This document shows positions 27,267-34,100 of a stretch of 34,100 nt of DNA, one piece after another. Each line of letters opens with the position of its first letter. The first letter of the stretch is position 1. A program made the translations under genes and the position numbers. The stretch is from Bdellovibrionales bacterium (GTDB lineage Bacteria; Bdellovibrionota; Bdellovibrionia; Bdellovibrionales; Bdellovibrionaceae): assembly GCA_018266295.1 (NCBI GenBank), contig JAFEAQ010000003.1, forward strand, positions 1 to 34,100, in the 5' to 3' direction. The notes under the pieces are model-generated. The model saw only the letters and a list, made by a program, of their open reading frames with translations. It did no database searches and had not been told where the DNA came from.

Positions 27267-27447
27267 ATGCGCTCGCTAGTGCTTTTTGCCGCTGCTCAAT
27301 GACGTCATTCGGTTCATTCGTTTCTAAGGCGTCTAGAAGCGCGTCAAACGCTTCCGAACGTTTCGCCTTATCCACGTATGTAATACCTTCGACGTGGGGA
27401 ATATACGCGTAAATTTCGCCTGCTGCGTTTAATCTGAATTCGCTCAT
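27265..27447 (-). CDS. Hypothetical protein (60 residues) after the helicase loader
   Basis: A small protein starting MSEFRLNAAGEIYAYIPHV, with an Ala/Glu-rich C-terminal helix (RSEAFDALLDALETNEP). No family was recognised. Its ATG overlaps the stop of the helicase loader gene (ATGA), so it is co-translated with it. Confidence 0.65.
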   Translation of the reverse strand: MSEFRLNAAGEIYAYIPHVEGITYVDKAKRSEAFDALLDALETNEPNDVIEQRQKALASA

Positions 27448-28484
27448 TCGCTTTTATCTCCCATTCCTAAAATTTTAAAGACTTCGCTTGTGTCCTTTCG
27501 GTTTTCCGCCGGCGTTACATTTTCTTCCGGGAAGTCGAGTTGATTCGTCATTTCTTGAATCCTGCGACCAATTCGGCCGTCATCCCCGATATATGCGCTC
27601 TCCAACTGGTCTACACGTAAGTTCGATGTAAAGACCGTCATCTTTCGATGATTCTTGCGGTAATCAATGAGCTCGTACAACGTCCGTGTCACGAACCGCG
27701 ACTCTGAACCTATTCCGATTTCGTCCAATACAAGCAAGTCCACGCGTTTGAGCTCGTCCATGATCTGCGCCCGTGTCCGCTCGTTATTGTTGTTATACGT
27801 CGAACGAATATCTTCCAGTAGTTCCTCGACGACGTGAAAGCGTGTTTCTAGTCCGGCCGCTGCAATCAGATGATTCGCTAAGGCGCACGCCGTGAACGTC
27901 TTGCCGCTGCCCTTCTCGTCGCTGTACAGGTATAACCCGATTGAATCGACGCCGCTGTTCATCAAGTCTTCGAACCTTCTGACGACCTTTGTCGCGAATT
28001 CCTTGACGACGGCAGCACGTTCGCGGCTGTCTGGACGCTTATAAATATCCGTCCGAAACTCTTTTAGGTTGGCAAGCTCATATTTCGGCGGGATGCCGGA
28101 ACGTTCTCGCCGTTCTCGCCGTAACTTCGATTCTAAGCACTTGCAAGGCGTCTGATATTCGTAAGGTTCATATACGAGCGGCTTCAATCCCTCGGCCTTT
28201 CGGCTGCGCGTATCTTCGATGACCATGTGTTTCAGTTCCGCGTCATGTACGAATAGATAACCCGACCCGTCACATAAGTTTTCCGGGCAAGGGATTGCGT
28301 ACCGTTCGTTATGCTTACCATTCAAGATCGTCAAGTTCCTGTTCCCAATCGTTATTGACCGGTTGCCCGCTTGCTGCTCGTTTTCGTGCGAGCTCTGCGA
28401 TGACGCCGCCGCCATTTCCTGCGCTTTCTGTTGCGCCCGCTGTATGAGCGCCTTCATTTCCTCTGTATCTCCCATCCGTCGCAT
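27444..28484 (-). CDS. Helicase loader, DnaC/DnaI-like AAA+ ATPase
   Basis: This 346-residue protein loads the replicative helicase at the phage origin. It has a possible zinc-binding part (Cys66, Cys71, Cys114, Cys116), Walker A GSGKT (192-196) and Walker B LVLDE (251-255), then the sensor region (FTSNL) of the DnaC/IstB AAA+ family. No helicase gene was seen, so it probably recruits the host DnaC-type helicase. The ATG at 28484 has GGGTGG ten bases upstream; 28475 and 28457 are alternatives. All these starts lie inside the initiator gene, giving an out-of-frame overlap of up to 170 bp. Confidence 0.85.
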   Translation of the reverse strand: MRRMGDTEEMKALIQRAQQKAQEMAAASSQSSHENEQQAGNRSITIGNRNLTILNGKHNERYAIPCPENLCDGSGYLFVHDAELKHMVIEDTRSRKAEGLKPLVYEPYEYQTPCKCLESKLRRERRERSGIPPKYELANLKEFRTDIYKRPDSRERAAVVKEFATKVVRRFEDLMNSGVDSIGLYLYSDEKGSGKTFTACALANHLIAAAGLETRFHVVEELLEDIRSTYNNNNERTRAQIMDELKRVDLLVLDEIGIGSESRFVTRTLYELIDYRKNHRKMTVFTSNLRVDQLESAYIGDDGRIGRRIQEMTNQLDFPEENVTPAENRKDTSEVFKILGMGDKSE

Positions 28485-29205
28485 ACTCGTCGTTCCACCC
28501 TTCGTTAAAGAACCATGTTCCGGCCTGTTTGATGTATTGTGCTGCGGTACGGTTCACTTCGAGCATGAAGCAATACCGTTTGATGCCGTTTGTGATTGTG
28601 TCGTCGGTTACGCCGGCCTTGATTGCTTTCTTGTAAGCGGCGAACGCTCGTTTCTTTCCTTGCTTCTTCGGATAAAGTTTGTAGATAGATTCAAAACGCT
28701 CGTTCAAATCGTCTTTAGGCGATTGAACATTATTGTTTTTAATTGAATCTATGTCATTGGTGTTTTTAAGTGAATCTTTATAGAGTGTCACACTGACACT
28801 GGGGGGGTGTCCCTGTGACACTGGGGTAGTTTCACTGTGATACTGCCCCCCGTGTCCCTCTGACACTAGGGTACGACTTCTAACGTATTCGTGAAAGTCC
28901 TCAATCGTGTACAGATTACTTGTTACTCCACCCTTGTCATTAAATCGCGTTTGCTTCGAAATCAAACCTTTTTCGATTAACGTTTCAATCCGTCTAATCG
29001 CGGTCGAACGTGAGCAGCGCGATTTCTTTGCGATCTTCTCGAATGACGGGAACGCGTTCTCGCCGTTCTCATTCGCATATCGACGTAGGACGATGTAAAC
29101 CATCTTTTCAGTCGAGTCCGCGAAAACCGTTTCGTCGTCCACCACTTCGTTTTGAAGCATCACAAACGGGATTCGATTTCTGTCTATTACTTTGTCGTGA
29201 TTCAC
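28315..29205 (-). CDS. Replication initiator, winged-helix N-terminus (lambda O-like organisation)
   Basis: This 296-residue protein would bind the origin. Residues about 1-110 form a winged helix of the HTH_36 type (TEKMVYIVLRRYANENGENAFPSFEKIAKKSRCSRSTAIRRIETL). A flexible linker (about 113-165) is encoded by the iteron DNA. Residues 165-240 match the C-terminal part of phage replisome proteins (LYPKKQGKKRAFAAYKKAIKAG ... AQYIKQAGTWFFNEGWNDEY). The start is GTG, with AAAGGGG seven bases upstream. Placing the origin inside the initiator gene and the helicase loader next to it is the lambda O-P arrangement. Confidence 0.82.
   Translation of the reverse strand: MNHDKVIDRNRIPFVMLQNEVVDDETVFADSTEKMVYIVLRRYANENGENAFPSFEKIAKKSRCSRSTAIRRIETLIEKGLISKQTRFNDKGGVTSNLYTIEDFHEYVRSRTLVSEGHGGQYHSETTPVSQGHPPSVSVTLYKDSLKNTNDIDSIKNNNVQSPKDDLNERFESIYKLYPKKQGKKRAFAAYKKAIKAGVTDDTITNGIKRYCFMLEVNRTAAQYIKQAGTWFFNEGWNDEYATDGRYRGNEGAHTAGATESAGNGGGVIAELARKRAASGQPVNNDWEQELDDLEW
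28785..28867. other. Putative origin of replication with four iterons
   Basis: Four 16-bp units close to GTGTCCCTGTGACACT start at 28785, 28807, 28829 and 28852, that is with a spacing of 22, 22 and 23 bp (two helical turns). Each unit is itself an imperfect inverted repeat (GTGTC/GACAC). Blocks of seven G and six C lie between units. An AT-rich stretch (about 28725-28784) borders the array and could be the DNA unwinding element. It lies inside the initiator gene, in the linker between its two domains, as in lambda O. Confidence 0.8.
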
Positions 29206-29220
29206 GATTAAACCCCTTTC

Positions 29221-29409
29221 TTATTTACGCTCGTCCAATATATCGGCAATAGCTCGTTTCAACGCGTCGTAACGTTGCGGCGTCATATCCTTCAACCAAT
29301 TGTAAACCGTGAAGCGACTGCGCCCGATTTTCTTCGCGACGTGAGTGATAAAAATATGGTTGTAATGTAATTCACTTTCGATTTCCCGTTTCATTTCCTG
29401 CGGTGTCAT
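29221..29409 (-). CDS. Small HTH protein (62 residues), possible Cro-like regulator
   Basis: The protein has a compact HTH (HIFITHVAKKIGRSRFTVYNWLKDMTPQ) followed by one helix. Its size and strong promoter (29436-29464) fit a small regulator that controls the replication operon. It lies directly upstream of the initiator gene. AAAGGGG stands eight bases before the ATG. The name Cro-like is only an analogy of position. Confidence 0.68.
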   Translation of the reverse strand: MTPQEMKREIESELHYNHIFITHVAKKIGRSRFTVYNWLKDMTPQRYDALKRAIADILDERK

Positions 29410-29577: not shown

Positions 29578-30054
29578 TCAAATTCCATATTCGACGCCGT
29601 TCCCTTCGGACGGCTTTCGTCTGAACAACATGCCTTTTTCAACCAATCGGGCGATACACTTGAATAACGTTGAGCGTGGTACGCCCGTACCGTCGATCAG
29701 TTGCCGTTCCGTGAACACGCGATCACCGTCGATGCACTCGAACGCGAAAAATAGCATCACTGTTCGTTCCTGGGGCGAGTCGTAACCGGTGTACATGTGG
29801 TACGCCTGTTTAATTGACTCGAAACGGTTGCGGTCTTCCTGCTGCTGCTTGACCACTCCGACGGCTACGCCCGCCTTGATCTGCTTCACCGCTTCGACCA
29901 GTAGACCGTATTCGTATATACCGCCCTTGCCAACCCAATTCGTAACGGTTCGATACGACACCCCGTAAAAATTCGCAATTGCCATTTTAGCAGCGCTGCG
30001 CTTTGCTCCTAAGTGAGCGGCGAGCTCGGCCACGACTTCGATATTGTTATCCAT
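29578..30054 (-). CDS. Two-HTH regulator (158 residues)
   Basis: The protein has an N-terminal HTH with a resolvase- or phage-regulator-like motif (AKMAIANFYGVSYRTVTNWVGKGG), a middle helical part, and a C-terminal winged helix (FTERQLIDGTGVPRSTLFKCIARLVEKGMLFRRKP). Two DNA-binding domains suggest a transcription regulator; it could be the main lysogeny or early regulator, since no CI-type protein was found. ATG at 30054 has GGAAGGGTG upstream; a GTG three codons earlier is less likely. It lies just before a terminator, so it ends the first early transcript. Confidence 0.7.
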   Translation of the reverse strand: MDNNIEVVAELAAHLGAKRSAAKMAIANFYGVSYRTVTNWVGKGGIYEYGLLVEAVKQIKAGVAVGVVKQQQEDRNRFESIKQAYHMYTGYDSPQERTVMLFFAFECIDGDRVFTERQLIDGTGVPRSTLFKCIARLVEKGMLFRRKPSEGNGVEYGI

Positions 30055-30069
30055 TCGTTTCACCCTTCC

Positions 30070-32767: not shown

Positions 32768-33757
32768 TTATTGGACGAGAAACTTTTTGTGTTGCTCGCG
32801 CTTCTTTTCTTGTGTGAGCTGCGCATAGATTTGCGTTGTGGCAGGGTTGGAATGTCCTAGCAACGCTTGTACTGCCGTGATGTCCGCCCCATTATTCAAT
32901 GTTAACGTAGCGAACGTGTGACGCAACGTATGCGGCGTGACGCGTTTTTCTAGTCCGGCCTGCTGTGCGAGCAGCGTGATTTCACGTTGAATCGAACGTT
33001 TCGAAAGTCTGCCATGAGGTTTCCGCTCCGAAACCATCAACGCGTCATTGTCATCCGTCCGACTTCTTAAATATTTCTCCAAATGGTACATGGCTTTATA
33101 ACTGAAATACACTTCCCGTTCTTTGTCACCCTTCCCGATCACCTTACAACTTTTAGCGTGATAGTCGATGTCGTTCCGGTTCAACTGCTGAATTTCCGCC
33201 AAACGGCAGCCAGTAGCGTACAGGATTTCTAAGAAGGCGCGCTGTCGATTCGTCTTACACGACTCGCGTAGCAGTTCCAATTCTTCAATGCTCAACGATT
33301 TCGGTAATCTTTTTTCTTTTTTAGGCGTCTTTAGTTTCTTGGCCGGGTCGCGCATCAAATAGTCTTCCGCCGTCAACCATCCAAAAAACGACTTAAATAC
33401 GGTTAGCTTTCTGCCTAGCGAGCTCATTTTCAAATGCGGAAACGTTCCCATGTGGTTGCGAATGTCTGCGGTCGTAATGTCGTCTGTCCGCTTCTTGATA
33501 TGTTGGGCGAACACGTTTAAGTCGCGTTGATAACCCTCTAACGTGGCAGCAGCCAAACCCTCTAACTTCTTGGCCGATAGGAACAAGGTTATTTTATCGT
33601 CTAAATCTGGGTGCACTTCATCTTCTTGAACAGACGTCACGTTGTACCGTGTCACAATCTTAGATAGTTCGGATTTTGCTTCATCCGTTTTTACATCGGT
33701 CAACGTAGAAATGTACGCTACGATTTCCGAAATGATTTGTTCATTTGCTGTTTGCAA
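32768..33757 (-). CDS. int: Tyrosine integrase (XerC/D-like)
   Basis: This 329-residue recombinase has a SAM-like core-binding domain (about 50-135) and a catalytic domain with all active residues: Arg185 (ATGCRLAEI), Lys209 (GKGDKE), His276 and Arg279 (HTLRH), His302 (LGHS) and the nucleophile Tyr311 (TQIYAQL). The N-terminal 45 residues are an extra helical part. It would insert the phage into the host chromosome. The start is TTG, six bases after GAGGGG. It is transcribed toward the early genes and is divergent from the RHH gene, with operator-like boxes between them. Confidence 0.93.
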   Translation of the reverse strand: MQTANEQIISEIVAYISTLTDVKTDEAKSELSKIVTRYNVTSVQEDEVHPDLDDKITLFLSAKKLEGLAAATLEGYQRDLNVFAQHIKKRTDDITTADIRNHMGTFPHLKMSSLGRKLTVFKSFFGWLTAEDYLMRDPAKKLKTPKKEKRLPKSLSIEELELLRESCKTNRQRAFLEILYATGCRLAEIQQLNRNDIDYHAKSCKVIGKGDKEREVYFSYKAMYHLEKYLRSRTDDNDALMVSERKPHGRLSKRSIQREITLLAQQAGLEKRVTPHTLRHTFATLTLNNGADITAVQALLGHSNPATTQIYAQLTQEKKREQHKKFLVQ

Positions 33758-33783: not shown

Positions 33784-33843
33784 TATAACTTAGCTATAAC
33801 TTAGCAGGGAAAATAGTTATTGTCAATATAACTTGTATAACTT
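33784..33843. promoter_or_regulatory. Four TATAACTT operator-like boxes
   Basis: TATAACTT occurs at 33784, 33795, 33827 and 33836, that is as two pairs spaced 11 and 9 bp. They lie between the divergent integrase and RHH genes and cover the RHH promoter. RHH proteins usually bind tandem short boxes in this way, so autoregulation and integrase control are likely. Confidence 0.75.
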
Positions 33844-33867: not shown

Positions 33868-34044
33868 ATGGCCGTCGATAAAACAAAAAACGAGCAGTTG
33901 TTAATCACGATTCCGAACGAGCTGCTTCATCAGATCGAATCATACTGGTACGACGAAAGAGTGAAGAATAGGAGTGAAGCGATCAGGCAACTAATCAGAA
34001 TTGGACTCGAAAAACATGAGGACGAAAAAAAGCGACTGGATTAA
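33868..34044 (+). CDS. Ribbon-helix-helix (CopG/Arc-like) regulator
   Basis: This 58-residue protein has the RHH layout: a strand (QLLITIPNELLHQI) followed by two helices (RSEAIRQLIRIGLEKH), with NRSEAIRQLI being the typical turn and second helix. It would bind DNA as a dimer through the beta ribbon. It is the only gene on the plus strand, convergent with the late operon and divergent from the integrase. The ATG at 33868 is chosen for AGGAGGG six bases upstream; an ATG at 33844 overlaps the -10 box. It may be the lysogeny regulator. Confidence 0.85.
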   Translation: MAVDKTKNEQLLITIPNELLHQIESYWYDERVKNRSEAIRQLIRIGLEKHEDEKKRLD

Positions 34045-34100
34045 ATTCCGGCCGCTTTTTCTTTGCATTCATTTTTTAAATCTATGGCTAAGTTTCATCC
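33976..34100. repeat. Terminal direct repeat, right copy (circularity overlap)
   Basis: This is the second copy of bases 1-125, offset by 33,975. It begins inside the ribbon-helix-helix gene, which is complete only at this end of the window, and continues past its stop codon and terminator. Confidence 0.95.
34025..34061. terminator. Bidirectional terminator, second copy
   Basis: Same element as 50-86, offset by 33,975. It closes the RHH gene. Confidence 0.8.

Follow-up and report, generated by a model that had tools for sequence, protein, structure and literature searches.

In phage lambda, four annotated iterons are spaced 20/24/23 bp apart at 0.39-0.48 of the O gene, with an AT-rich stretch on the C-terminal-coding side and the helicase-loading gene next in line (PMC7466680). 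In the RepA_N plasmid pSK41 the winged-helix N-terminal domain (NTD) of Rep binds four Rep boxes in the middle of the rep gene, and the origin-encoded linker region is dispensable (PMC5703833). The NTD of the chimaeric Rep of pPR9 is of the pfam13730 (HTH_36) type and related to a phage replication protein, and since the pPR9 rep region supports autonomous replication (PMC5703833), it provides a precedent for initiators of the HTH_36 type driving replication. ORF49 of the Lactococcus phage BK5-T and its P335/phi31.1 relatives represent a further type, in which an HTH_36 initiator gene holds four repeats of 22/23 bp with GGGTA/ATACCCC spacers and an AT-rich stretch after the repeats; in BK5-T the array is annotated as a repeat_region. 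The window, by which we mean the whole stretch of 34,100 nucleotides analysed, is compared here with these systems. Positions 28725-28867 are very probably the origin at which the phage starts its replication, lying inside the gene of its own initiator.

The initiator gene (28315-29205, minus strand) encodes 296 aa and matches both HTH_36 (E 2.5e-16, 59.6 bits against a cut-off of 25) and phrog_270 (E 2.3e-49). It is followed by the gene of a DnaC/DnaI-like AAA+ helicase loader (27444-28484, minus strand; phrog_50, E 8e-43). When read from its first ATG the loader ORF overlaps the initiator by 170 bp (28315-28484) in another frame; the two genes may indeed share this long stretch, or translation of the loader may begin at a later codon. 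The AlphaFold model of the initiator, built with 33 sequences, has a confident winged helix at residues about 14-110, in which the recognition helix spans residues 66-79 and includes R71, a low-confidence, disordered linker at about 111-163 and a confident helical C-terminal domain at 164-240. Both parts of the proposed origin fall in linker codons, the iteron array covering residues 113-141 and the AT-rich segment 141-161, in agreement with the claim of the sequence-only reading that this DNA encodes the interdomain linker. In-gene origins of the HTH_36/phrog_270 group are marked by tandem iterons about two turns apart in these codons, and the window has this arrangement. Among aligned relatives no close homologue of the protein was found, overall identity being at most 38%, and a PDB sequence search returned no useful match. 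The best Foldseek row in the PDB was 5kbj, a Rep-DNA complex, and 4pql and 4pt7 were also listed, yet many unrelated winged helices score alike.

The array consists of four iterons on the minus strand. The one adjoining the AT-rich segment lies at 28784-28800 (core 28785-28799, GTGTCACACTGACAC), and is followed by those at 28806-28822 (core 28807-28821, GTGTCCCTGTGACAC), 28828-28844 (core 28829-28843, GTTTCACTGTGATAC) and, farthest from the AT-rich segment, 28851-28867 (core 28852-28866, GTGTCCCTCTGACAC). The starts of these 15-bp cores are exactly those first read from the letters, and so is the spacing of about two helical turns (22/22/23 bp); TRF independently recovers the array with a period of 22 and 2.9 copies as the top-scoring tandem repeat in the whole 34.1 kb. 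All four units are imperfect palindromes of 15-17 bp, as had been proposed, with 6/7 complementary pairs in the first three cores and 5/7 in the core at 28852, and the first and third reach 7/8 pairs when extended to 17 bp. The third copy is degenerate. The spacers GGGGGG, GGGGTA and GCCCCCC match the description of units parted by G and C runs, and Lactococcus-type origins (L013:2752-2835, L207 and relatives) alternate GGGGGTA and ATACCCC spacers.

At up to three mismatches the iteron motif has seven matches in the 34.1-kb window, every one inside the array, where 0.12 would be expected by chance; none of 100 shuffles attained this number. The four-copy score of 79 compares with a mean of 51.4 and a maximum of 58 for synonymous-codon shuffles (n = 100; z = 11.5). 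Furthermore, the copies occupy coding frames 2, 1, 2 and 0 and encode differing peptides. Copies in all three frames together with a score above that of synonymous-codon shuffles indicate that selection acts on the DNA. A repeat of the protein is ruled out by the three frames, and a chance repeat by the shuffles.

The AT-rich segment, a presumed unwinding element, flanks the array at 28725-28783 with 76% AT, so that the AT-rich border described at the outset is confirmed. Of all 50-bp stretches in the initiator gene, 28731-28781 has the lowest stability, and across the 34.1-kb window it ranks in the bottom 0.2%. The segment carries a 23-bp direct repeat (28728-28750 and 28755-28777; 87% identity, 27-bp spacing), and at the matching position the Lactococcus relatives have 12-bp AT-rich repeats.

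The contig equals the window and ends in an exact 125-bp terminal repeat (1-125 and 33976-34100), and the simplest reading is therefore a closed circle of 33,975 bp. With host DNA on neither side, the element represents a plasmid-like prophage or else free phage DNA. The right-hand 1.1 kb, at the integrase end, has no second copy elsewhere in the genome, no DNA similarity to known phages was detected, and no close relatives were found in 66 genomes of the family. GC skew has its detrended minimum at 28503 (block permutation p 0.004), which moves to 27816 at four-fold sites, and the two-state fit is ambiguous; the skew agrees weakly with an origin at the array, and for these reasons was set aside as a means of placing it. 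The tyrosine recombinase encoded at 32768-33757 exceeds the score that NCBIfam sets as cut-off for the XerA equivalog, and may have a role in dimer resolution as well as in integration. Between this XerA/XerD-like recombinase gene and a ribbon-helix-helix repressor-like gene, TATAACTTAGC occurs twice in tandem (33784-33805), a possible recombination or operator site. The product of 20276-20656 matches the phage family phrog_803, 'host nuclease inhibitor' (E 2e-14).

Distant relatives of the initiator are present in 143 phage records. Most of those examined have an array with a 21-24 bp period at the corresponding gene position, usually with AT-rich DNA after it, and these include BK5-T, P335, phi31.1, D6890, SfV, AsXd-1, mEp010, BcepMigl, MR13 and Lactobacillus huangpiensis. 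By the measure applied to the phage relatives, no array stood out in VanLee, fHoEfm07 and Leona. The circular plasmids pDSM4216, pPC01 and pRA1 and a Brevibacillus element encode related initiators with in-gene arrays as well (z 5.3 to 9.9). The comparison of the repeat in relatives, which the sequence-only reading had named as a check, is favourable, with arrays at the same position in most phages examined and in-gene arrays in plasmids.

The association of array and initiator was also recovered without reference to any protein. A scan of 2.9 million viral contigs, based on DNA only, for GTGTCNCNNNGACAC repeated after 5-9 bases (double iteron) yielded 63 stretches, compared with one for a palindromic scrambled control of equal form; many of the 63 are mutually related, and about 31 distinct arrays are left. 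In 54 of the 63 stretches the whole match lies within an ORF of 80 aa or more; of these 54 ORFs, 49 match HTH_36 and 49 phrog_270. Among the misses, L162 and L187 appear to be wrong-strand ORFs, and L100 and L146 end before the winged helix. Nine stretches have no spanning ORF, and in five of them a winged-helix ORF stops just before the array. The array follows just after a short winged-helix ORF at L161:4722-4759 and also in L168, L173, L174 and L177, which represent split or truncated initiator variants. At L179:5467-5548 and L191:1390-1427, GTGTC-type arrays adjoin AT-rich DNA, and no ORF in their surroundings was recognised as an initiator. Spacings between copies cluster at 20-24, 31-34 and 42-45 bp, values close to whole numbers of helical turns; it must be noted that the scan pattern itself imposes one 20-24 spacing per locus, but not the other spacings. 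In viral contigs, DNA alone is hence sufficient to find in-gene origins of the HTH_36 type.

Differences between the iterons are mirrored in the recognition helix. Lactococcus-type initiators, collected via the C-terminal domain and comprising 41 distinct proteins, fall into four main recognition-helix types, SKKTISVTL, TTWTVSTTL, TKGTVSANL and TKVTISNTL, with TACACAGATGTAAA, TTGTGAAAAATCTAA, TACCGAAGAATC and TTAAAGAAAACTTTAA as their respective iterons. Helix distance correlates with iteron distance over the 41 proteins (partial r = 0.76 given C-terminal and N-terminal distance; reached by 0 of 2000 permutations), a correlation to which iteron extraction added noise by misplacing some rows (e.g. 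AAAAAAAAGATACATCC). Where C-terminal domains are >94% identical but helices different, all 140 of 140 pairs differ in the iteron (mean distance 0.50, minimum 0.35), and the mean iteron distance of same-helix pairs is 0.03. This covariation, the DNA-only scan and the arrays of the circular plasmids each favour a picture in which the initiator binds iterons within its own gene. In the class with GTGTC/GACAC iterons R71 is at least 90% conserved, with an arginine at this position in nearly all readable helices (L203 and L204 were misread). The plasmid pPC01 was retrieved through the similarity of its protein, independently of the iteron, and combines the arginine with a GTGTC/GACAC iteron. L012 is an exception, having the arginine at the R71 position yet a CACATGTG-type iteron, and the mechanical GAC/GTC count employed for the helix code is noisy outside the GTGTC class. 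The apparent link between R71 and GTGTC/GACAC is a lead, with exceptions, drawn from sequence comparison. One may speculate further that a single, very large family of exchangeable cassettes unites the HTH_36 initiators with in-gene origins from phages and plasmids of several phyla, and that it follows a readable specificity code in which an arginine at the R71 residue predicts GTGTC/GACAC half-sites and other residues other iterons; we give this proposal slightly less than an even chance. If it is true, origin compatibility would be readable from sequence. The link between helix and iteron offers a route to predicting common origins among phage and plasmid replicons, and hence which of these interfere or can exchange modules.

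The origin would be expected to work as follows. Dimers of the winged helix, through the recognition helix at 66-79, would bind the four palindromic iterons, which would lie on roughly one face of the DNA since their spacing is about two helical turns. The bound dimers would build a nucleoprotein complex, this complex would melt the adjoining AT-rich segment, and the C-terminal domain together with the DnaC-like loader would load the host replicative helicase, whereupon theta replication would start. Dimer binding, melting of the AT-rich DNA and helicase delivery by the loader are steps that we infer. An initiator whose binding sites sit in its own linker codons would carry specificity and origin together, as one cassette.

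It could be argued that the array is instead an operator, through which the initiator or another HTH protein of the phage regulates the early operon by roadblock or autoregulation while replication starts elsewhere. Palindromes would suit a dimeric winged-helix regulator, and other HTH genes are close by (29221-29409 and 29578-30063). However, the array lies in mid-gene and not at a promoter, a destabilised segment adjoins it, and such arrays are strongly associated with initiator genes across phages and plasmids, so that we find a purely regulatory role improbable. A dual role of the array, as origin and in autoregulation, is conceivable. Even less credible is that the repeats act as RNA hairpins in the initiator/loader mRNA and control its translation or termination. 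Coding-strand RNA of the region does fold better than shuffles (z = -2.76), as palindromes tend to, but copies that recur near multiples of the DNA helical repeat and an iteron sequence that tracks the protein recognition helix in relatives are unexpected for hairpins. Similarly implausible is that the array serves a plasmid-like prophage in partition, as a centromere, or as a copy-number sink. The circular contig and the TubR centromere-binding proteins among the winged-helix fold matches suggest such a role, but neither TubZ nor ParA turned up among the scanned ORFs, and the gene belongs to initiator families and lies beside a helicase loader.

Replication initiation at the array is thus the preferred reading. 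For a circular phage genome not characterised in other respects, this predicts, with strong comparative support, where replication starts and which protein starts it. The sequence-only reading had called the origin lambda-like, and this holds for the layout but not for the protein. The iterons lie at about 0.38-0.47 of the initiator gene, with a spacing, an AT-rich side and a neighbouring helicase-loading gene as in lambda. In contrast, the initiator has no detectable homology to lambda O (BLASTP E 0.43; hhalign probability 0.5%; no PF04492 match), and such homology was rejected on the BLASTP and hhalign results. Lambda O belongs to Pfam Phage_rep_O (PF04492) and the window protein to HTH_36, the iteron sequences differ, and the place of lambda P is taken by a DnaC-like loader. 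RepA_N (PF06970) is absent from the Pfam matches of the initiator at E up to 0.1, and the C-terminal domain differs from those of the pSK41 and pPR9 Rep proteins.

The BK5-T ORF49 type is 26-32% identical to the window protein over the aligned part and has its repeats at the same location, followed likewise by AT-rich DNA, but differs in recognition helix and iteron sequence and has no DnaC-like loader annotated alongside. Escherichia phage mEp010 has an HTH_36 initiator and in-gene iterons nearly identical to those of the window (AGTGTCACAGTGACAC) at a spacing of 23/22/23, although the C-terminal half aligns poorly and the host is of another phylum. The initiator of the Paenibacillus crassostreae plasmid pPC01 is 38% identical over residues 33-180, has the helix SRSSAIR and carries in-gene GTGTC-N5-GACAC iterons at 23/22 bp; it differs in its C-terminal domain, and no phage structural genes are present in the stretch shown. 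As judged from its sequence, the element belongs with the HTH_36/phrog_270 initiators that have in-gene origins of the BK5-T type. An origin within the initiator gene is a known design, established in phage lambda and staphylococcal plasmids, and the addition of the window to it as a new member is well supported.
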